Notes under the pieces: generated by a model | The model's input: only the letters and a program-made list of their open reading frames with translations | The model's database searches: none | What the model was told of the DNA's origin: nothing | Shown here: positions 6,111-20,712 of the stretch, piece by piece | Numbering within the stretch: position 1 is the first letter of the stretch | How the letters are laid out: every line of letters starts with the position of its first letter | Virus record (IMG/VR): IMGVR_UViG_3300000117_000341 | Coordinates: 1-21,215 of that record | From: a virus | DNA: 21,215 nt | Strand: one strand, 5' to 3' | Made by a program: the position numbers and the translations under genes

Positions 6111-7580
6111 ATGGCAATTACAGGTGGAAATTTGTTAAATAGTGTACCTGCTCCAATACAGCAAACACTAGCTACAAATTACTTAGATTTCAACACAGAC
6201 ATGGGTTGGGCTCAACAATATTTACCAGATCTTATGGAAAAAGAAGCTGAGGTTTTTGGAAAAAGAACTATTTCAGGATTTCTTTCACAAATAGGAGCTG
6301 AAGAAGCGATGGCTGGTGATCAAGTTATTTGGTCTGAGCAAGGTCGTTTACACTTATCTTACAAAGGAGATATAGATACTAATAATATTATTACTATTCA
6401 AAAAGATATTGATGGTAATGATATTACTACAACTACACACCACGGTGTTAGATTAAATGATACAGTTATTGTATCAACTGTTACTGGAGTTTTTAAAGGT
6501 TTAGTAACTCTTGTAAATGGTTTAAGTATTACTGTTGCAACTTATGATGGAACTACTATACCAACTTCAGGTAACACTGCTGATGGTGCAACTACTCTTT
6601 TTGTTTATGGTTCTGAATACGCAAAAGGTGTTGGTTACAACAATACTGATGACGCTACAGTACAATCAAGAGGAGCTAACGAACCACAATTTAAAACTTT
6701 TAGCAACAAACCAATTATCATGAAAGATTACTACGAAGTATCAGGTTCTGATACATCTAGAATTGGTTGGGTTGAAACTACTAGTGAAGGTGGTCAATCA
6801 GGTTACATGTGGTACTTAAAAGCTGAGTCTGATACAAGAGCTCGTTTTACTGATTACTTAGAAATGGCAATGTTAGAAGGTGAAATTGATCGTCTTGACG
6901 CTTCTAGTAACGGAGTTGAAGATGCTTTATACGGAGCTGATGGTACTAAATCTGTTGGTACAGAAGGTTTATTTGCTGCTATCGAAGCAAGAGGTAATAT
7001 GACTTCTGGTGTTACTGGTGTTAATGCTGCTACTGATTTAGCTGAATTTGACGCTATCTTAGCTGAGTTTGATAAGCAAGGTGCTATTGAAGAAAACATG
7101 ATGTTTGTTAACAGATCTACTAGCTTAGCTATGGACGATATGTTAGCTTCTATGAATTCTTACGGTGCTGGTGGTACATCATACGGTGTATTCAACAACT
7201 CTGAAGATATGGCATTAAATTTAGGTTTCTCTGGCTTCAGAAGAGGTTCTTATGACTTCTACAAGTCTGACTTCAGATACTTAAACGATTTAGCTACAAG
7301 AGGTGGTGTTAACGCTGCTAATGCTGCAAATGCAATTAGAGGGGTTATTATTCCAGCAGGTACTTCAAATGTTTATGACCAACAGTTAGGTAAAAACTTA
7401 AAGAGACCATTCTTACACGTTCGTTATAGAGCTTCACAAACGGACAATAGAAGATTGAAAACTTGGGTTACTGGTTCTGTTGGTGCTGCTACATCTTCTT
7501 TAGATGCAATGCAGTTACATATGCTAACTGAAAGATGTTTAATTACTCAAGGTGCTAACAATTTCATGTTAATGAACTAA
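6111..7580 (+). CDS. major capsid protein (HK97-like fold expected)
   Basis: This 489-residue protein is the likely main shell subunit. It follows the scaffold gene and ends at a strong terminator, an arrangement typical of a very highly expressed capsid gene. The N-terminal part has FNTDMGWAQQYLPDLMEKEAEVFG and EEAMAGDQVIWSEQGRLHLS. The middle has IIMKDYYEVSGSDTSRIGWVE and YLKAESDTRARFTDYLEMAM, blocks I associate with crAss-like and related marine phage capsid proteins. Between them, residues about 88-185 form a beta-rich, Thr/Asp/Gly-rich segment that may be an insertion domain on the capsomer surface. The C-terminal part (HVRYRASQTDNRRLKTWVTG) would form the P-domain end. No N-terminal delta-domain or cleavage site is evident, in keeping with a separate scaffold. 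Confidence 0.9.
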   Translation: MAITGGNLLNSVPAPIQQTLATNYLDFNTDMGWAQQYLPDLMEKEAEVFGKRTISGFLSQIGAEEAMAGDQVIWSEQGRLHLSYKGDIDTNNIITIQKDIDGNDITTTTHHGVRLNDTVIVSTVTGVFKGLVTLVNGLSITVATYDGTTIPTSGNTADGATTLFVYGSEYAKGVGYNNTDDATVQSRGANEPQFKTFSNKPIIMKDYYEVSGSDTSRIGWVETTSEGGQSGYMWYLKAESDTRARFTDYLEMAMLEGEIDRLDASSNGVEDALYGADGTKSVGTEGLFAAIEARGNMTSGVTGVNAATDLAEFDAILAEFDKQGAIEENMMFVNRSTSLAMDDMLASMNSYGAGGTSYGVFNNSEDMALNLGFSGFRRGSYDFYKSDFRYLNDLATRGGVNAANAANAIRGVIIPAGTSNVYDQQLGKNLKRPFLHVRYRASQTDNRRLKTWVTGSVGAATSSLDAMQLHMLTERCLITQGANNFMLMN

Positions 7581-10788: not shown

Positions 10789-13700
10789 ATGCCAGAAATC
10801 AAAAACACTTTTGTTGGAGGTAAGATAAATCAAGACCTTGACGAAAGAATTGTTCCTAATGGAGAGTACATAGATGCGATGAATATTAAGGTTAATTCAT
10901 CTGATGACTCTAGTGTTGGTACGGTTCAAAACATATTAGGAAACTCCAGAGTGGATATGATAGTACCGCAAGACTATTTGTGTATAGCAACTATTGCAGA
11001 CGAAAAAACAAACAAGCTGTACTGGTTTGTAACAAAACAATTGCCAACTCCAATCAACGCTATATTGCAGTATGATTTACAAGATCCAAATGCTGCGGCT
11101 AAAATAGTTTTAATTGACAAAAACAACTCTACATTAAAGTTTACAACAAAAATTATTACTGGTATAAATATTGTTGATAATTTTTTATTTTGGACAGATG
11201 GTGTTAACGAACCTAAAAAAATTAATATAGATGATTGTTTAGAAGGCACAAAGCTGTCTAATCCTTCTGTTCAAGACTTAAACAGTGCGGTTCACACAAA
11301 ACTAGTAGTCAACGGTGTTCCTAAAGGTGATATTGAAGAAAAACATATAACTGTTATTAAAACAGCGCCTAGAACAGCTCCCTCAACAACTATACTACCT
11401 GATTACGATAAGCCAGCCGTGCTTTTCGAAAAAGTTTTCCCAAGATTTTCTTACAGATACAAATACAAAGATGGAGAATATTCTTCTTTTGGTCCTTTTA
11501 CAGAAGTAATATTTAATCCTATTTATAAGGAGGAGTATAACCTTGACAATGCTTACTCACTTGAAGAGGGTAATAACGCTGGTATGGTAAACAACATAAA
11601 AGCTATTAGGTTTCAAAATTTTAAACATGCTAGAATGGGAAAGAATGTAGTGCAAGTTGAGTTGCTTTACAAAGAAGAAGGTTCTAGTGTTGTTTTTTCT
11701 GTTAAAAAAATAAACTATAATGACCCTGAGTGGAGTCAAAACCAATTTCTTTTAGAATCACAAGACATATTTGCAGCAATACCAGAAAATCAGCTATTAA
11801 GAGCTTGGGATAACGTCCCTAAAAAAGCGCTAGCACAAGAGGTTACAGGTAATAGAATTGTGTATGGTAATTACACACAAGGCGCAAATTTAATTACTAG
11901 TGATGGTGATAAAGCTGTTTCAAACGTTGTGGTTGATTATGAGAAAAGAGATTTAAGGTATACTTTTAATAGTGACTTTGATTTAGGTGGTATAAATTCT
12001 TTAAAATCACAAAGAGAGTATAATGTTGGAATAATATGGGGTGACAAGTATGGTAGAGAAACACCTGTTAATGAAAACGTAGGAAGTGTCACGGTACCGT
12101 GGTATGACAAAAATACAGGTTTACTTTTAGCAAGTAACTCTAATTCTTTAAAGTTAAATGTCAACGGTGATAAGCCTTACTGGGCAGATTACTATAAATT
12201 TTTTGTTAAAGAAAACTCAGGAGAGTATTACAACTTATTGATGGATAAGGCTTACATTGCGGAAAAAGTAAATTTATTTGACGAAGCTGAAGAAAAAATA
12301 TGGTTAGGTTTTGTGTCTTCAGATAGAAACAAAATTTCAGATCAAGAGTATATAATTCTTAAAAAACAAGTCGGAACAAATGAGTTGCAAATACCTTTAG
12401 AAAATAAATTTAAAGTTATAGATGTGCAAAACGAAGCTCCAGACGCTATAAAATACAGGTACGTTGATATAGGGCGAGTTACAGATAGTACTAATAATAT
12501 TGTTGATAATCTTGATTTAATATTTCCTGAAACATCAAATAGGCCAAATGCCGAGATAGACATGCTGTATATAGGTATATCAGACTGGGTTAATACAGTT
12601 GGTGGTTCTTTACAACAAGGCGCTGACAACGCAGAAATGTGGATTGAAAACCTATATACATCTTGGAAAGATACAGTTACAGGCAAAACCTCTGAAAGAT
12701 ATAGAATAATATCTTCTATAAACAATGGTAATGACCAGTACATGTTAAAGTTAGATAGAAAAATAAACACTTCAGACGCCGCTATTGCCTTAAAGCAAGG
12801 CTCTACAACTAATGAAATGAATGATGATTTGGAGTTTTTAATACAAAAAAGAGAAGAGGTAGAGTTAGAAGAATTTACCGGTAAGTTTTTTGTCCAAATA
12901 AGCTCTCTTTCTTCTACTCAATCAGATGTTACAGATGAGGAGCTAAATAACAACCACATGCAAGTTGCAAACCAAAGTTTTTTTTGGTTTTATGATGATG
13001 TTCAAGTGGGTACAAACCCAATATTTGCAGGTGGACCAACAGAACCTTCTCCAACACCAAGCCTCGCAAGTAATGTTAGTGGAGTAACTGGGCCTATAAC
13101 CGACACAGAAACGGATTACAGTTCTTTAATGGCAAAATTTGGTAATATTAACAAAGGATTTTTTGTTGACAATTTATATATGGCTAGCAGTCAAGTACAC
13201 GGTGCTAACTACGCTAAAAGTACTGGTAGAGCTTGGTTTGGTAGGCATGATCAACACGCAGTAACACCTACGTGGGGTAGATTATTACAAGATGGAGATG
13301 TACCAACTGTTACCACAACTAATACTGAGGTTTATGGTTGGGGTTATGGTTTTTTTAATGGAAGTCTTGGAAACCCAGGTTCAACTCCAAATCCTAGTAG
13401 CCCTCATTTTGGTAAAAAATATCCGCTTGTAGATTTATTTCAAGGTGGTTTTGGTATTAACGAAAATTGGGTGCAAGGCCAAAAGCTTATTGCTAGTCCA
13501 GATCAAGCAAAAACAGTTAATAGTATGGAAGGTTTTGTTGAAACAACAGACGCCTACTCTTCAACATTAGGAGCTTTAACTGCCTACAGAAGATGGAGAA
13601 AACCTGGCTTTACTAACTTGTTTGGAAATTATTTTGATGGAGACGCTGAAGAAACATATGGCACTGAAAACGGTGTTCATTATATGCAAATATCATTTTT

Positions 13701-16700
13701 AGCCCCAGGAAAAGATCTTCACAGCGGGTTTAACGCTAATTTTGATGAGAGTGCGCCTAATTTTGGAAATGATAGTCCTGGTAATTTTTTACAAGCTATA
13801 TGGGGTGGTGGTATATTTAATGATACTGTTAATAATAACGTTGTTGAGATGGAGGGTAATTATAACGTTAATGACGATCCTTTAGTGGATGCTCCAGGGC
13901 CAAATGTTGGTTATGGTTATGATGATACTTTTGACTATAGAGCTAAACATGAAAACCAATGGGAACCTACTTATGGTTTAAACTCAGAACAAGCTAGCGA
14001 AATTGAAAGTTTTATTCAAAACCTGGCGAAGGATAAAAAGTTTAAGTTTTCTAGTAATGACGATGAAATATTTACTATTCTTGCTAATCCTATAGTTAAA
14101 AAAGTGTACAATCACACAGCTTGGAATAGAGACTATGATCGCAGAAATGGAACTTCTTACGAAGAAGTTGAAAGTGTAGAAAAAGCTGCTTTAACATGGG
14201 CTAATAGTAAAAATACTACTAACTTTGATGCTTTTAAAGAAAAGATTATTGATTTTGGTAAGGCAAGTAATAGAAGACTTGTTTATATATTTCCTATAAA
14301 TAAAAACCCTTTACCACTTTTAAATGCTAATGGCGGTGCTCCAGAACCTGATTTTGATGCAGAAGCTAGTTTAGATATAAATTTTATAACAGCTAACGCT
14401 AGTGAAGTGTTAAGTCAAGTTGTAAAAGGCTCTGCAATATGGGAGACAGAACCTAAAAAAGACGACAAGCTAGAAATCTACTATGAGGCTAGTCAGGCTT
14501 ATCCTACAAAGTTAACTACAGACACAAATGTTGATTTCGCTCCACATGGTGGTTTTGTAGAGTTTATTAGTATTCCCGAGGCTAAAAATGGAAAGCATAT
14601 TGTAGAGTCTAAAGTTCAACTCGTAAAGTGGACTGGAAAAAATAGATTTGCAATAGCAACTGGAAAAAGTGCCCCTGGAAATGGAGTTAATAAATTTGAT
14701 GATAACGGAGATACTATAGACTACAAGGGTGGTTTAGTTAGGTTTTACAGAAAAGAAGGTGGTTATACAACAGCTAGAATTAGCGCTAATCCTATATCTG
14801 CTGCAAATGAAACCTTTACTGAAACAGATCCAGTAACTGGGCAAGTTTATACATATACTGCTACGTCAGATTATTATAATCAATTTTATGTAGAAGAAAA
14901 TATAGATATTTCTTTAGACACTGGTTTAAACTGGTATAATTGTTTTACGTTTGGTAATGGTATTGAGTCAAATAGAATTAGAGATGATTTTAACAATCCT
15001 ACTATTAGTAATGGTGTTAAAGCATCTATAGTTTTAGAAACAGATTACAAAGAAGAACATAGAAAATCAGGTTTAATATTCTCAGGTATTTATAATTCAA
15101 ATTCAGGCGTTAATAATTTGAATCAATTTATAATGGCTGAAAATATTACTAAAGATTTAAATCCTACTTATGGTGGTATACAAAAGTTATTCCAAAGAAG
15201 AATAAGTTTAGTTGCTTTTTGTGAGGATAGAGTTATTAGCATAACATCTAACAAAGACGCGTTGTTTAACGCGGACGGTAACTCTCAGTTGGTAGCTACA
15301 AACGCTGTTTTAGGTGATGCTACTCCTTTTGTCGGTGACTTTGGTATATCTAAAAACCCAGAGTCTTTCGCTAAAGATTCTTACAGAGCTTACTTTGCAG
15401 ACAAACAAAGAGGCGCGGTACTTAGATTATCTATGGACGGTATAACACCTATTTCAGAAGCTGGTATGGACGATTATTTTAGAGATAATTTAAAATTATC
15501 AGGAGAAGTAATTGGTAGTTTTGATGCTTATGATAAAAATTATAATATTACATTTTCTGGTTTAAAACCAACACAAAGTCTTATTTTAAATAGTTTTATT
15601 GATGATGGTAGTGAGAGTACTGTTCTTTTTACTCCATCGTCAATAATAATAGATCCTTATATTAACTCGTTAACACCTATTACGCTTCCAACACCTCTTA
15701 ACATAAATAATGGTAATTCAGAGTTAAGTAATAGATATTTAGATTTTAAAACACATATTACAAATTACGACGAACAGGCTGTGGGTAGCATAGAGGCAGA
15801 AACACAAACGATAACTACAACACAAGATACTTTTACAACGTTTGGAACGGCAGCAAGCTCTTTTGCTTCTTTTAACTTCACTAATGCTGGCAATCATAGT
15901 AACACTGTTTTTGGTGCCGCAGGTTCAGGTTACGGTGGTGCTGATAAAAAATGGCAAATAAAAAGAAACTATGCTTCGCAATTTGTTACAGATAGTGAGG
16001 CTTCTCTTGGTGGTAATTTTACTAATGGTATTCCAAATCCTTTAGAAGATCATTATCCTAGTTGGACTTATGGTGGTACACTTTTTTCAAACGGTGGTAC
16101 CAGCACTATAACCTCTGCAAGCGGATTTTGGTATGGTTCGAATCCTGATATTCATTACGCAGGGCCTAGTGGAGATATTATTTGGAATAGAGATAAAGAT
16201 CTGTACGATGATTTTTATTCATATGCTATTGACACAAGTGATCCGACGTATTTTTCCGCTCCATTTCAAGGAGGTGGAGAAACGTCTAGACCTTGGTTTT
16301 TTAACGCAAGTGGAGCATGGCAAGGACTTACTTGGGACGGTACTCTTGATACTGTGTCAGCTATTTTTCCTGGTGTAAAAGCAACTGCTAATGATATTTC
16401 AACTCCAGCGCCTGTATTAGCTAAATATACTTCTGCTGCTCCAAACACTATATTTAACGGAGAAGAAGTAAGAATTCAGTTTTATGCTAGAAATCACTAT
16501 AAAGTAAACTCTGATGGTACTGGTGGAATGCTTGGGCAATACGACAGTACAGCTGATTACACCAGATACATAAACATACAGCTCTATGATGGTATTCCGG
16601 GTCAAGGTGGTGTTGCACTAAGTGATGAAGTTATATTTGATGGTAATAATGTACCACCCGGGGTTAGTGGTGATTTTGGGTCTGAACAATCAGATCCAAA

Positions 16701-19131
16701 TCCTCAAGGAACTTACTTAGTTGGGTTTCAGCCTACAGCTAGCTTTAGTTTTCCAACTCTAGTTAATGACAACAACATTCAGCACAATATATTTTTTAAA
16801 TTTACAAATGACACTGCTACTGGTAACAACGATGCTGATAATACCGAGCAAATTGTAGTTCAAAACTTACAAGCTGTAATTACTTGGAAAAACAATAATG
16901 GTAGCACCGCTCAAAGACTTTTTGGGACTATATCTAGTTTAAATATGATAAAGAAGCATCAATTGATTGATGTAGATACTTTCACAACAACAACTACTAA
17001 CAATGGAGACGCACAGCCACCAGTAACAATACCTGCTTTTGTTGAAGTTGATCATGATCATTATCCTTATTGGGTACTACAAGACGCTGCTGGAAACGTT
17101 TTAGATGAAGACCCTTTTGCTGAGGTTGCTTTAGGTTATTACGGGCCTAACCACATAGCAGTACAACAAACCGCAACCAACAACGATGGTGTAACTAACA
17201 CGTGGTATGTTCCTCCTAATGGCGATGTAAGTAACGGTACTACTTTTTATGATGATGGTTCTGGTGGTGGGGGTATGTACACAACTGGTACAAAAACAAC
17301 AAATGATAAATTTGCTTGGAATGGCGGTAGTGGTGATAACTACTTAATACAAAGTAATACGGTTGTAACTGGTAATTGGTATGCAATAGCTTTAATGAGA
17401 GTAGGAACACCGTCTGGTGATGTTCCAGTTCTAGAGCACTACAACATTGACTTTGAGCTCACAGATATTCCTTTTGATTTTATAGAAGGTAATACACTGC
17501 ACCCTGCTTATTTCTGTATATTTGAAGGTGATGATACTATAACTGAAATAAAAATAAAGCTACCTGCTAGCGCTGATTTTACAATGTCTACTATCAACAT
17601 GATAGACATAAGTGAAACATGGACGCCAGCAATTACTAATCAGATGGATCATTGGATTACAAATATAGGTTCTAGTCAAAATCCATTTCCACAAAATTTT
17701 TATGACAAACCAAAAGTCTATGGAGATACAGCTGGTATAGTATTTGACTCACCCGAACCTGGTAACTACATTAGTGTTCGTCAAGATCATGGCTCAAATT
17801 TTGCTGCCAGTGCTAATGGCTGGTTATTAGAGTTTCATGTATCTAATTACAACAGCGGTACATTAAATTTTCATATAACAGATGCTAATGGTGATGGTAT
17901 TTCTGGACTCAACGTAATTGATAGAAACGGTTTTTATAGGGTTTACTTTAATGATTTCACCACAACGTATGACGTTCTTATAGATGAAGGGCTTCCTGCC
18001 CCAAATAATGGCTTTCAGCCACATGGCACAACCAGTTCTATCTCTGGATCTTCACTTACTAATTTAATTTGGTTTTCCGACAACGGTGGTATCGAATGTG
18101 TTGTTAATTCTATCAAACTTACAGATCAAACTCAAGTTTTTTCTGGTGGATCTGCTGATAACTTTACTTTTAGTGGTTTTGATGAATTAGTTAACGACTA
18201 TATTATTTTCGACGCAGCAAACCAAAATATTGAGTTTATTAACGCACCTATAACAGATTTAGGTCAAGTTCAGGTTCAACAAGCTATTACACAACCTACA
18301 TATGCTGGACAATCTTTTAGGGTTTTATTTGAGCACAGTATAACACAAGGAGCTATAAATGGCTATTACTTTAACGATGATGGTGAAGGTTTTAGGTTTG
18401 GAACTATAAGCGCTCCAACCTTCCAACAAACATACAACACTTTACATACTATAGGAGAAGCAACGTGGGTAGCTGGGGAATTAAAAAATACTTTTGTAAT
18501 CTTTGTAGATCAAGAGCAAACTAGTGGAACTATTGATAATATAACATTTAGACAGGAGTTTAGTTTTCTTGATGAAAATGGTAATGATATGTCAAGCACA
18601 ATATCTTTTAGCGAAAAAGTTAGAGGTTGGGTTAGTAGAAAATCATTCGTACCTGAGCAAGGTGTTAGTTTGTCTAGTGATTATTTTACTTTTAAAAACG
18701 GTGGTATTTTCAAACACAATGAAGAAATAATAGATATTAACAGTGGTGATGATACTAATAGAAACACTTTTTACGGAGTTTCTACTAATTCTACTATAAC
18801 TACCGTTTTAAACACTGAGCCTTCTACTATAAAGTCTTTTAATACTATTAAGTACGAAGGGTCACAATCTAAAGTTCAAGCCGGTGATCCTGCTGTTTTA
18901 ATCACTAACCCAGATTTAAGTGTTAGCTCTTACAGCACGTTAGAAGCTTACAATCAACATGAAAAAGCTGGGTGGAGTGTAGAGTACATAAAAACAGACA
19001 AGCAAGAAGGTAGTGTTAACGAATTTATAGAAAAAGAAGGCAAATGGTTTAATTACATTAGAGGCAATGAAGAAATAAAAACAAGCGATTTAAGTTTTCA
19101 AGGACTAGGAATTGTAAAAGGAACACAATAA
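10789..19131 (+). CDS. giant tail hub/stabilization protein with inserted adsorption modules
   Basis: This single intact 2780-residue frame is the largest gene in the window. The N-terminus (IKNTFVGGKINQDLDERIVP, then NGEYIDAMNIKV and VGTVQNILGN) is a hallmark I associate with crAss-like and marine phage tail stabilization proteins. A beta-propeller-like region follows (NFLFWTDGVNEPKKINID). Further conserved-looking blocks are AIWETEPKKDDKLEIYYEAS at about 1216-1236, residues 1385-1560 (RKSGLIFSGIYNSNSGVNNL to GMDDYF), and the C-terminus from about 2595 (SFSEKVRGWVSRKSFVPEQG, then EFIEKEGKWFNYIRG). Between 1667 and 2591 the sequence is a run of beta-rich modules. There is no signal peptide, coiled coil or catalytic motif I can name. 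The likely role is the tail hub, with the insertions contacting the cell surface. It lies 3 bases after the connector and 1 base before the next gene. Confidence 0.72.
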   Translation: MPEIKNTFVGGKINQDLDERIVPNGEYIDAMNIKVNSSDDSSVGTVQNILGNSRVDMIVPQDYLCIATIADEKTNKLYWFVTKQLPTPINAILQYDLQDPNAAAKIVLIDKNNSTLKFTTKIITGINIVDNFLFWTDGVNEPKKINIDDCLEGTKLSNPSVQDLNSAVHTKLVVNGVPKGDIEEKHITVIKTAPRTAPSTTILPDYDKPAVLFEKVFPRFSYRYKYKDGEYSSFGPFTEVIFNPIYKEEYNLDNAYSLEEGNNAGMVNNIKAIRFQNFKHARMGKNVVQVELLYKEEGSSVVFSVKKINYNDPEWSQNQFLLESQDIFAAIPENQLLRAWDNVPKKALAQEVTGNRIVYGNYTQGANLITSDGDKAVSNVVVDYEKRDLRYTFNSDFDLGGINSLKSQREYNVGIIWGDKYGRETPVNENVGSVTVPWYDKNTGLLLASNSNSLKLNVNGDKPYWADYYKFFVKENSGEYYNLLMDKAYIAEKVNLFDEAEEKIWLGFVSSDRNKISDQEYIILKKQVGTNELQIPLENKFKVIDVQNEAPDAIKYRYVDIGRVTDSTNNIVDNLDLIFPETSNRPNAEIDMLYIGISDWVNTVGGSLQQGADNAEMWIENLYTSWKDTVTGKTSERYRIISSINNGNDQYMLKLDRKINTSDAAIALKQGSTTNEMNDDLEFLIQKREEVELEEFTGKFFVQISSLSSTQSDVTDEELNNNHMQVANQSFFWFYDDVQVGTNPIFAGGPTEPSPTPSLASNVSGVTGPITDTETDYSSLMAKFGNINKGFFVDNLYMASSQVHGANYAKSTGRAWFGRHDQHAVTPTWGRLLQDGDVPTVTTTNTEVYGWGYGFFNGSLGNPGSTPNPSSPHFGKKYPLVDLFQGGFGINENWVQGQKLIASPDQAKTVNSMEGFVETTDAYSSTLGALTAYRRWRKPGFTNLFGNYFDGDAEETYGTENGVHYMQISFLAPGKDLHSGFNANFDESAPNFGNDSPGNFLQAIWGGGIFNDTVNNNVVEMEGNYNVNDDPLVDAPGPNVGYGYDDTFDYRAKHENQWEPTYGLNSEQASEIESFIQNLAKDKKFKFSSNDDEIFTILANPIVKKVYNHTAWNRDYDRRNGTSYEEVESVEKAALTWANSKNTTNFDAFKEKIIDFGKASNRRLVYIFPINKNPLPLLNANGGAPEPDFDAEASLDINFITANASEVLSQVVKGSAIWETEPKKDDKLEIYYEASQAYPTKLTTDTNVDFAPHGGFVEFISIPEAKNGKHIVESKVQLVKWTGKNRFAIATGKSAPGNGVNKFDDNGDTIDYKGGLVRFYRKEGGYTTARISANPISAANETFTETDPVTGQVYTYTATSDYYNQFYVEENIDISLDTGLNWYNCFTFGNGIESNRIRDDFNNPTISNGVKASIVLETDYKEEHRKSGLIFSGIYNSNSGVNNLNQFIMAENITKDLNPTYGGIQKLFQRRISLVAFCEDRVISITSNKDALFNADGNSQLVATNAVLGDATPFVGDFGISKNPESFAKDSYRAYFADKQRGAVLRLSMDGITPISEAGMDDYFRDNLKLSGEVIGSFDAYDKNYNITFSGLKPTQSLILNSFIDDGSESTVLFTPSSIIIDPYINSLTPITLPTPLNINNGNSELSNRYLDFKTHITNYDEQAVGSIEAETQTITTTQDTFTTFGTAASSFASFNFTNAGNHSNTVFGAAGSGYGGADKKWQIKRNYASQFVTDSEASLGGNFTNGIPNPLEDHYPSWTYGGTLFSNGGTSTITSASGFWYGSNPDIHYAGPSGDIIWNRDKDLYDDFYSYAIDTSDPTYFSAPFQGGGETSRPWFFNASGAWQGLTWDGTLDTVSAIFPGVKATANDISTPAPVLAKYTSAAPNTIFNGEEVRIQFYARNHYKVNSDGTGGMLGQYDSTADYTRYINIQLYDGIPGQGGVALSDEVIFDGNNVPPGVSGDFGSEQSDPNPQGTYLVGFQPTASFSFPTLVNDNNIQHNIFFKFTNDTATGNNDADNTEQIVVQNLQAVITWKNNNGSTAQRLFGTISSLNMIKKHQLIDVDTFTTTTTNNGDAQPPVTIPAFVEVDHDHYPYWVLQDAAGNVLDEDPFAEVALGYYGPNHIAVQQTATNNDGVTNTWYVPPNGDVSNGTTFYDDGSGGGGMYTTGTKTTNDKFAWNGGSGDNYLIQSNTVVTGNWYAIALMRVGTPSGDVPVLEHYNIDFELTDIPFDFIEGNTLHPAYFCIFEGDDTITEIKIKLPASADFTMSTINMIDISETWTPAITNQMDHWITNIGSSQNPFPQNFYDKPKVYGDTAGIVFDSPEPGNYISVRQDHGSNFAASANGWLLEFHVSNYNSGTLNFHITDANGDGISGLNVIDRNGFYRVYFNDFTTTYDVLIDEGLPAPNNGFQPHGTTSSISGSSLTNLIWFSDNGGIECVVNSIKLTDQTQVFSGGSADNFTFSGFDELVNDYIIFDAANQNIEFINAPITDLGQVQVQQAITQPTYAGQSFRVLFEHSITQGAINGYYFNDDGEGFRFGTISAPTFQQTYNTLHTIGEATWVAGELKNTFVIFVDQEQTSGTIDNITFRQEFSFLDENGNDMSSTISFSEKVRGWVSRKSFVPEQGVSLSSDYFTFKNGGIFKHNEEIIDINSGDDTNRNTFYGVSTNSTITTVLNTEPSTIKSFNTIKYEGSQSKVQAGDPAVLITNPDLSVSSYSTLEAYNQHEKAGWSVEYIKTDKQEGSVNEFIEKEGKWFNYIRGNEEIKTSDLSFQGLGIVKGTQ
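13021..13068 (+). other. Pro/Ser/Thr linker opening a first variable region in the tail hub
   Basis: Residues about 745-760 read IFAGGPTEPSPTPSLA, a flexible linker. After it, residues up to about 1120 are unusually rich in Gly, Asn, Trp, Tyr and Phe (for example EVYGWGYGFFNGSLGNPGST). The region ends before a helical, charged stretch (about 1070-1170). This suggests a separate inserted domain within the hub; the downstream boundary is uncertain. Confidence 0.4.
14941..15468 (+). other. conserved core block of the tail hub
   Basis: Residues about 1385-1560 include FTFGNGIESNRIRDDFNNP, GGIQKLFQRRISLVAFCEDR, GISKNPESFAKDSYRAYFAD and GAVLRLSMDGITPISEAGMD. This is the part of the protein I most firmly recognise from crAss-like stabilization proteins. 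It marks the end of the hub core before the long insertion. Confidence 0.55.
15787..18561 (+). other. approximately 925-residue insertion of tandem beta-sandwich-like modules
   Basis: Residues about 1667-2591 separate the conserved core from the conserved C-terminus. The segment is rich in T, N, G, D, S, W and Y, with no long helices evident. A first part (about 1667-2080) ends near IVVQNLQAVITWKNNNG. Three later stretches look like successive modules: about 2093-2278 (starts PYWVLQDAAGN, ends STINMIDISE), 2287-2448 (starts DHWITNIGSS, ends VVNSIKLTD) and 2458-2591 (starts NFTFSGFDEL, ends GTIDNITFRQEF). Each starts near an aromatic-rich strand and ends in an Asn/Ile strand like the closing strand of carbohydrate-binding jelly rolls. 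Module borders are estimates. Confidence 0.5.
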
Positions 19132-19132
19132 C

Positions 19133-20383
19133 ATGGAAAAAAAATTAATTAAAAGGGTATCTATAAATAGAGCTAATATGGTTGCTGCTGGAGAGAATAG
19201 AGAGCTAGTTATTTTTGGAGATATTGGCGCTGAGTTTAATATCAATATTATAAAAATAAACGGTAGTTCAAAAGAAAGTTATTATAACTTTAAGACAAAC
19301 ACTTTTACAGAAGCTTTTGTAGCTGCTAATAATTCACACGAAACAATGGCTAGCGAGAAATTTTCTAAAGTAATTGTTTTTCCAGCTGATGCAAACGGAG
19401 AGGTGTATAGCATAAAAACTATAGCAAAAGAACCAACTACAAAATTTAGAAATGGTAATTTTGTTGATACAAAAACAATAACTCAAGTTGGTCAAACAAT
19501 TATAGCGTTCCAAGTGCCAAGCACTTCAACTATTGACGATAACTTAGTGAGTCTTCCTACAGCTGTTCAAAGTACAGGTTCTACAGCTTTGTCACAAACC
19601 GTTACAATTCCTATAGCTTGGACTTTCACAAATACATCTAGCGACACAAAAGGTTTTGGCTTAAGACTACCGGGATTACCAGAGTCAAACGAATTTATTA
19701 TACCTGATAACTTATGGTACTCTCAACAAGTAGCTGTAGTAGACGGTACTCATAGTAGTGTTTTAGATATTACTGTAAACAGCACGGATAAAGTAGTTGC
19801 TGGTATGGAACTTTCTGGTTATCTTGAAAGTGGTACTAATAAAATATTTGTAACAGCTGTTTCTGATACCGTAATAACATTAAGCGCTGCTATATCAGCG
19901 GCTAATGATGCTCAGTTAACATTTAAAGCGTATGGCCCAAGTCTTATAAAAAGTATTTTTGGACAAGAAGTTGAATTTAGCGGTTTTGTAGCAAGAGGCA
20001 CACCTTTACAAAAGCAAGTTAGAACGCAAACAACTTTCCCAACATCAAATGGAAATGTTACTTTACCATTATCTGGAACTTACGGTGTTGGTGGTGGTGG
20101 TCATGTTAGGCTAGAAGGTTTCAACGTTAACAATACGGGTAACAATAATCTAATAACAACTGTTAGTGCTAGCTCTACAGCTGGATCCGTTGTAATAAAC
20201 TACAGTGGAGCAGAATTAGATTCTGCTTTAACTATTCCAATTGGAACAAAACTTAACGTTATTGGATCCCACCAAGTAATAACAGTTACTGGTAACGTTA
20301 AAGTAAAAAAATACCCTGACCAAAACGCTAAGGTAATTTTAGACACAGTACAAATTATAACTGCTGGTACAGCTGACGAATAA
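19133..20383 (+). CDS. beta-rich tail/virion structural protein
   Basis: This 416-residue protein starts 1 base after the hub stop (TAAcATG). The N-terminal 110 residues (RELVIFGDIGAEFNINIIKI, FKTNTFTEAFVA, KVIVFPADANGEVYSIKTIA) look like an all-beta domain common in tail proteins of marine phages. Residues about 200-265 hold the segment VVAGMELSGYLESGTNKIFV, continuing TAVSDTVITLSAA to QLTF, a repeat-like strand pattern often found in phage tail and baseplate proteins. The C-terminal part is Gly/Asn-rich (YGVGGGGHVRLEGFNVNNTG) and ends in further strands. There is no catalytic motif. It probably decorates the tail or hub; a role in receptor binding is possible but not shown. A weak AAAGGA lies 10 bases before the ATG, within the previous gene's end. 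Confidence 0.6.
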   Translation: MEKKLIKRVSINRANMVAAGENRELVIFGDIGAEFNINIIKINGSSKESYYNFKTNTFTEAFVAANNSHETMASEKFSKVIVFPADANGEVYSIKTIAKEPTTKFRNGNFVDTKTITQVGQTIIAFQVPSTSTIDDNLVSLPTAVQSTGSTALSQTVTIPIAWTFTNTSSDTKGFGLRLPGLPESNEFIIPDNLWYSQQVAVVDGTHSSVLDITVNSTDKVVAGMELSGYLESGTNKIFVTAVSDTVITLSAAISAANDAQLTFKAYGPSLIKSIFGQEVEFSGFVARGTPLQKQVRTQTTFPTSNGNVTLPLSGTYGVGGGGHVRLEGFNVNNTGNNNLITTVSASSTAGSVVINYSGAELDSALTIPIGTKLNVIGSHQVITVTGNVKVKKYPDQNAKVILDTVQIITAGTADE

Positions 20384-20388
20384 ACAAT

Positions 20389-20712
20389 ATGATAATAAAA
20401 TTTAAAAGTAATTTACAAAACTCTTCTTTGCAAATGCACGACAAAGCTTGGAAAAGCGTTCCTGATGCTAATGGGTTTGGAAGTGAAAAAGTTCTTGTTG
20501 GAGAAATAACAGAAATAGGTGTTGATTATATCGAGATCAATAGCCCTCTTACATCTGTAGATCCAGACGATTTTATAATGTTTAGCAAAGATAACAAAGT
20601 AAATAAAAACAGTCTTGTTGGTTATTACGCTGAAATTAAGTTTGAGAACAACTCTAGCAACAAAGCTGAATTATTTTCAATAGGTTCTGAGGTGACTCAA
20701 AGTAGTAAATAA
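20389..20712 (+). CDS. small virion-associated protein of unknown function
   Basis: This is a 107-residue, mostly beta protein. The first half carries KVLVGEITEIGVDYIEINSP. The second half has DDFIMFSKDNKVNKNSLVGY and YAEIKFENNSSNKAELFSIG. I recall very similar C-terminal blocks in short proteins encoded in tail modules of unrelated marine phages (podo- and myoviruses), usually left as hypothetical. It starts 5 bases after the preceding stop and ends 27 bases before the next gene, so it is part of the same unit. It could be a small tail or head-tail accessory protein. There is no membrane segment. Confidence 0.6.
   Translation: MIIKFKSNLQNSSLQMHDKAWKSVPDANGFGSEKVLVGEITEIGVDYIEINSPLTSVDPDDFIMFSKDNKVNKNSLVGYYAEIKFENNSSNKAELFSIGSEVTQSSK

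Follow-up and report, generated by a model that had tools for sequence, protein, structure and literature searches.

The 21,215-base virus record analysed here ("the window") carries, in this order, genes for a terminase, a portal, a 389-aa protein, a structural/capsid protein, two smaller proteins, a ring protein and a 2780-aa protein, followed by two ORFs of 416 and 107 aa and an incomplete gene for an internal virion protein (Table 1). The 2780-aa ORF is open throughout, with no internal stops in the translation, and occupies 39% of the window, in keeping with the preliminary description, which had put it at nearly 40 percent. It lies directly downstream of the ring-protein gene, and the order TerL, portal, structural/capsid, ring, muzzle is that of the phage phi40:1.

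Judged by its sequence matches, this ORF is a real gene and encodes a crAss-like tail muzzle of the phiCrAss001 gp44 family. The protein matches PHROG_14478 (E 2.2e-115) and also PHROG_18548, and its residues 2657-2760 match PF25729 (crAss_MUZ_C, the crassvirus muzzle C-terminal domain) with 39.7 bits against a curated cut-off of 27; all 26 members of alignment A1 match the same domain. When a profile of the window family was compared by hhalign with a profile of seven Crassvirales muzzles, two places matched, one N-terminal (family 1-244 with gp44 1-217, E 1.6e-9) and one C-terminal (family 1508-1797 with gp44 1055-1333, E 2.6e-14; L009 numbering in both cases). These two matches together with PF25729 identify the protein as a muzzle and rule out the name "tail hub" that the preliminary description had given it. 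The muzzle was formerly named the "stabilization protein" and is distinct from the tail-fibre docking hubs of crassviruses; its proposed task is to keep DNA and cargo proteins from leaving until the crassvirus encounters a host. The middle of the window protein, where a crass fold and IG-like domains would be expected, gave no significant profile match to gp44, and an AlphaFold2 model of the core reached a pLDDT of 71.9. Core N- and C-termini and the C-terminal Pfam domain are what the two proteins have in common, as well as the adjacency of ring and muzzle genes (gp43 and gp44 in phiCrAss001). A literature search found the phiCrAss001 structure as the sole directly relevant paper (PMC10172136). 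It also provides a more distant likeness, at the level of gp44, to T7-type nozzles, with which gp44 has a ring-joining domain and a seven-bladed propeller in common (PMC10172136).

A tblastn search with TerL returned 87 phage records, all of them Flavobacterium, Cellulophaga, Tenacibaculum, Maribacter or unclassified phages, the best match being 62% to MW202828; no gut crassvirus is among the organism names of these 87 records. As far as tested, the phage appears to be crAss-like and to lie outside the formal order Crassvirales. Muzzle C-terminal matches were also seen within Flavobacteriaceae and Flavobacteriales genome bins (L087, L088), a hint of Bacteroidota hosts.

Table 1. The muzzle gene, its parts and its neighbours, in positions of the window.
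Feature	Position	Strand	Basis
Ring protein adjoining the muzzle, with a middle insertion of ~230 aa	9238..10785	+	PHROG_13977; gp43/gp44 position; insertion lengths
Muzzle ORF, 2780 aa, 308 kDa	10789..19131	+	Pfam PF25729, PHROG_14478
Residues 1-740: ring-joining and first propeller segments, IG-like regions, start of crass-domain region	10789..13008	+	N-terminal gp44 match; later boundaries by analogy with gp44
Residues 741-1190: probable enlarged crass-domain region, of graded length among relatives	13009..14358	+	Site lengths
Residues 1386-1593: conserved propeller block, ending at the first strand of the hairpin	14944..15567	+	Identity; gp44 from 1055 on
Residues ~1594-2600: cassette, ~1,007 aa, predicted all-beta, 109.8 kDa	15568..18588	+	Bimodal site length, HMM positions, model
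Residues ~1676-2075: exchanged sub-block of the cassette	15814..17013	+	Identity and dS jump, L006 versus L001
Residues 2288-2447 and 2448-2597: two tandem homologous beta domains	17650..18579	+	hhalign 96.8%, E 2e-10
Residues 2601-2780: second strand of the hairpin, last propeller part, muzzle C-terminal domain	18589..19128	+	PF25729; gp44 up to 1333
416-aa ORF between the muzzle and its C-terminal piece	19133..20383	+	ORF list, gene order
107-aa ORF: probable split-off C-terminal piece of the muzzle	20389..20712	+	Homology to fused C-termini; PHROG_18548 165-239

The conserved frame of the protein comprises ~1,450 alignable residues, the length of an ordinary muzzle. Its relation to the remainder is clearest against the muzzle of phi40:1, which aligns only with window residues 1-535, 1383-1592 and 2604-2761; in phi40:1 these blocks are consecutive (1-493, 867-1077 and 1079-1203), as the preliminary description had anticipated for an N-terminus, a block at about residues 1385-1560 and a C-terminus. 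The best-conserved parts include the block 1386-1593 (96-98% identity to the nearest relatives) and the C-terminus (89-95%). The muzzles of phi40:1 (Cellulophaga, 1324 aa) and elemoF (Flavobacterium, 1493 aa) show ~30% identity to the window protein over the three core blocks, stand in the same gene order and are annotated as structural proteins, in phi40:1 by MS/MS. Unlike the window protein, both are without the cassette described below and have the C-terminal piece fused.

The two stretches that separate the conserved blocks had been described as compositionally different, which is true of residues 1594-2600 (K+R 3.5%, pI 4.1, against K+R of ~10% in the core) and only mildly so of residues 741-1190 (7.6%). 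They had also been taken together as domains inserted into a scaffold, and here the two must be told apart. Between anchors 700 and 1222 lie 521 residues in the window protein, 325 in gp44 and 232 in phi40:1, with a continuous spread up to 717. Because the length varies continuously (232-717), I read the stretch 741-1190 not as an inserted domain but as an enlarged crass-domain region; by sequence, it is an instance of graded growth, a kind of variation already published (PMC10172136). The same paper ascribes muzzle length variation to insertions in the crass and IG2 domains, propeller insertions being unmentioned (PMC10172136).

Residues ~1594-2600, on the other hand, are a discrete, optional and phylogenetically patchy cassette at one exact site. 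Site lengths were compared in 75 muzzles, drawn from 79 viral-contig loci plus phi40:1, elemoF and gp44, minus partial or duplicate sequences; the sample consists of the best 80 matches to the window's own protein, and the counts hold for that neighbourhood only. Between anchors 1588 and 2606 there are 6-132 residues in 48 of the 75, 310 in a single one, and 919-1370 in the remaining 26, the window included. These bimodal site lengths rule out growth of the whole protein as the source of residues 1594-2600. Numerous shorter homologues align before and after this stretch with no residue inside it and are shorter largely by the cassette; three of them (L009, L011 and L014) are ~40% identical to the window protein over residues 1-1590 and again from ~2580, with nothing between. 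Homologues of equal length aligning from end to end, which the preliminary description had set against insertion, do exist, but in close relatives only (L001, L002, L003, L006 and others).

In the alignment the empty site of short relatives, for example '..YDDKKNEYNLTL TTVSFSESVKGWVSFKSF..', is a tight turn joining two strands, which reads '..NEYNLTL|TTVSFSE..GWVSFKSF..'. A family HMM of 1,478 positions also places the site, its position 1288 being window residue 1592 and its position 1290 window residue 2601. Going by how strands normally follow one another in a propeller blade, this hairpin would be the b-c turn. In the profile alignment the insertion site falls at about residue 1199 of gp44, between 'YFTYKD' and 'HCLCYSE', where gp44 (1371 aa) has an empty turn and the window protein has its cassette. 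None of the listed gut crassviral records that span the hairpin point has ~1,000 extra residues there, and their lengths are close to that of gp44.

A tree of the capsid gene proved misleading as a reference for phage lineage, the capsid gene itself being exchanged, and trees of the portal and of the muzzle core were used for this reason. On the muzzle-core tree, built without cassette columns, the presence of the cassette takes five changes, against an average of ~21 with shuffled labels (none of 500 shuffles was as low); on the portal tree it takes eight. The muzzle-core tree has one main clade of 25 carriers and six non-carriers, the latter in three groups, a 27-row sister clade without the cassette, and one carrier, L038, standing alone. 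The L038 cassette has weak similarity to the others (hhalign 50%, P 1.6e-4, with L038 left out of the profile), and clear homology links those of L024 and L025 to the remaining cassettes.

An AlphaFold2 model of residues 1583-2780 shows the cassette as all-beta and multi-domain (mean pLDDT 66.9, pTM 0.38, the propeller part being poor). The cassette holds an internal block that differs sharply between close relatives. The muzzles of L006 and L001 are otherwise ~90% identical (79-98% outside the cassette), but over window residues ~1676-~2075, where the window sides with L006, they are only ~37% identical. Within this block of ~400 residues dS between L006 and L001 is 1.16, compared with 0.13-0.23 outside, so the block was exchanged between muzzles and did not simply evolve fast; this exchange is a new finding. 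Between the window and L006, dN/dS comes to 0.29 for the exchanged block and 0.22 for the remainder of the cassette; the cassette is therefore under purifying selection and maintained.

Searches of the 26 cassettes against Pfam, PHROGs and NCBIfam gave no convincing family match, and PDB sequences gave no relative beyond one chance-level line (E 1). As to known carbohydrate-binding or galactose-binding-like module families, there was no sequence match beyond a weak one to GalBD_like (E 0.012) in one of the 26. PHROG_38031 was ruled out as a cassette family, its match being confined to the last propeller part. The last two cassette domains were not found outside the muzzle in 14 contigs or records, nor was cassette-domain similarity found in the ring-protein insertion, the 416-aa protein or the first stretch (741-1190).

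The hairpin that holds the cassette is, by sequence comparison, also where the muzzle gene is broken in phi13:2, its close relatives and ctfjg026, a coincidence that is new here. In both phi13:2 gp120/gp121 and ctfjg026 the chain breaks between HMM positions 1290 and 1291. The upstream gene of ctfjg026 (MW202828) follows the core to the hairpin (residue 1202 of 1551) and then runs on for ~350 residues; a 184-aa gene comes next, and then a 267-aa protein that starts at the next propeller strand. In the isolated Cellulophaga phage phi13:2 (Pachyviridae), gp120 (1613 aa) follows the core to residue 1116 and continues for ~500 residues, and gp121 (241 aa) starts at the same HMM position as the downstream protein of ctfjg026. 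The region is kept at 96.6-98% DNA identity in phi19:3, phi18:3 and phi46:3, with two structural-protein genes there; since the split is kept in three related isolates, it is unlikely to be a sequencing error. PHROG_18548 (241 positions), of which 1-88 correspond to window residues 2601-2695 and 165-239 to the 107-aa ORF of the window, is evidently the downstream half of a split muzzle. In such broken chains a decoration trails the upstream half and a protein of 241-267 aa would supply the remaining propeller. Thus phi13:2 and ctfjg026 are interrupted at exactly the position of the window's cassette, but they use two genes and a decoration of ~350-500 aa, whereas the window has one chain and a cassette for which no homologue was found in phage records.

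Several further observations concern these decorations. That of phi13:2 looks in part cadherin/VCBS-like, by eye only. In several relatives (L041, L052, L023) short repeats of the form GCTDPxAxNYDPxAT..DGSC are present in neighbouring genes and in C-terminal extensions as well as at the hairpin of the muzzle, and they are apparently another exchangeable decoration. The muzzle of Maribacter phage Panino (L115:4316-8229) is annotated as two ORFs; its break lies elsewhere, within the propeller block, and may be a frameshift.

A second division of the chain, likewise new here, is found in the window itself, where the far C-terminal piece of the muzzle is, by homology, a separate gene two genes downstream. 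The 107-aa ORF matches the fused muzzle C-termini of L074 (E 1e-27), elemoF (E 2e-16) and phi40:1 (E 9e-14). In the window and 67 other loci this piece has a gene to itself, which follows the muzzle immediately (5-15 bases) in eight loci and stands behind at least one intervening gene in the others, among them the window with its 416-aa gene. Homology between the 107-aa gene and gp44's own C-terminus is not significant; the two are alike by eye and by position, and by position the 107-aa protein may be equivalent to the last strands of gp44. On this split-muzzle reading, phi13:2 gp121, the 267-aa protein of ctfjg026 and the 107-aa gene of the window are accounted for as pieces of one tail protein.

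How, then, is the cassette to be understood? I consider it rather probable that the window protein is a tail muzzle of ordinary frame with a hairpin port that displays exchangeable beta domains, likely in contact with the host surface; host contact is suggested because a block is exchanged, divergence is strong and the position is that of a tail tip. The phage would be a crAss-like podovirus, the nearest isolated relatives of which infect Bacteroidota. Within a conserved frame of ring-joining segments, a beta-propeller, and IG-like and crass domains, a single hairpin of one of the late propeller blades would accept foreign sequence and tolerate interruption too. The hairpin occurs in three states, namely with ~1,000 residues in several predicted beta domains, as an empty turn, or as a broken chain in which a second protein would have to complete the blade. 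A hexameric muzzle like that of phiCrAss001 would carry six cassettes around the tail tip, presumably with sandwich or jelly-roll folds and exposed on its outer distal face; together they would add ~0.66 MDa to give a hexamer of ~1.85 MDa. Most likely they would make contact with structures on the host surface, or bind them, before the muzzle opens or as it does so; glycans are the probable targets, and the ~400-residue block would be exchanged between phages as hosts or receptors change. The L001 contig also encodes a tail fibre in a gene of its own (PHROG tail fibre, E 4e-67). Receptor binding need not therefore fall mainly to the cassette, which would work alongside the fibres, perhaps making a second contact close to the gate. 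A single permissive turn at which evolution adds, swaps and cuts domains is likely a host-sensing surface and gives an exact place to test. I hold more tentatively the broader reading, plausible as it is, that the hairpin is a general decoration port in Bacteroidota crAss-like phages, the muzzle being modular and multi-chain, its outer domains swapped by recombination, and serving as a second host-recognition device besides the fibres.

It is unlikely that the cassette is instead structural bulk that makes the tail tip stiffer, shields it or lets it reach farther through a capsule, without specific binding. Such bulk would explain why length varies little in the group (919-1370) while sequence diverges strongly, and the fibre gene in the close relative L001 fits it as well, but exchange of an internal block, in homologous versions 37% identical, is more typical of specificity domains. 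A surface enzyme rather than a binder, such as a depolymerase digesting the host's capsule or polysaccharide, seems quite unlikely. Phage tail parts often digest surface glycans, ~1,000 residues stand here at a tail tip, and one cassette has the weak GalBD_like match; against this, none of the 26 cassettes matches a catalytic family, and the model strings beta domains together, two of them tandem copies, in a strand pattern that shows no evident long regular beta-helix.

That the long protein belongs to one continuous fold family, from which short relatives lost the middle with no insertion at all, is very unlikely. Loss does occur, as the muzzle-core tree fits one main gain followed by three losses, and equal-length homologues exist; however, the more distant muzzles compared (phi40:1, elemoF, gp44 and Gundel) and the sister clade all lack the cassette, and where the site is empty it forms a tight turn within a blade. 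An intein, or some other element that removes itself and leaves a mature muzzle of normal length, would suit the exact position in a conserved gene and the patchy presence, but is extremely unlikely given that none of the 26 members matches an intein or homing-endonuclease family, that the model is all-beta and 919-1370 aa is long for an intein, and that neither internal-block recombination nor the chain breaks found at this site, with their unrelated decoration, would fit.

The neighbouring genes vary as well. In six relatives the middle insertion of the ring protein is nearly absent (7-22 aa); in the others it measures 154-272 aa. Relatives of the 416-aa protein have the N-terminus in common and vary in length, and in L061 a related gene comes after the 107-aa homologue. 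The 70-kb contig of L001 also carries a GroEL chaperonin (L109:13100-14662; PHROG E 4e-134). The window's capsid-type structural gene (6111-7580) is 92-93% identical to those of L006 and L061 and 73% to that of L001, whereas its terminase and portal side with L001; the capsid-type gene has been exchanged independently of its neighbours.
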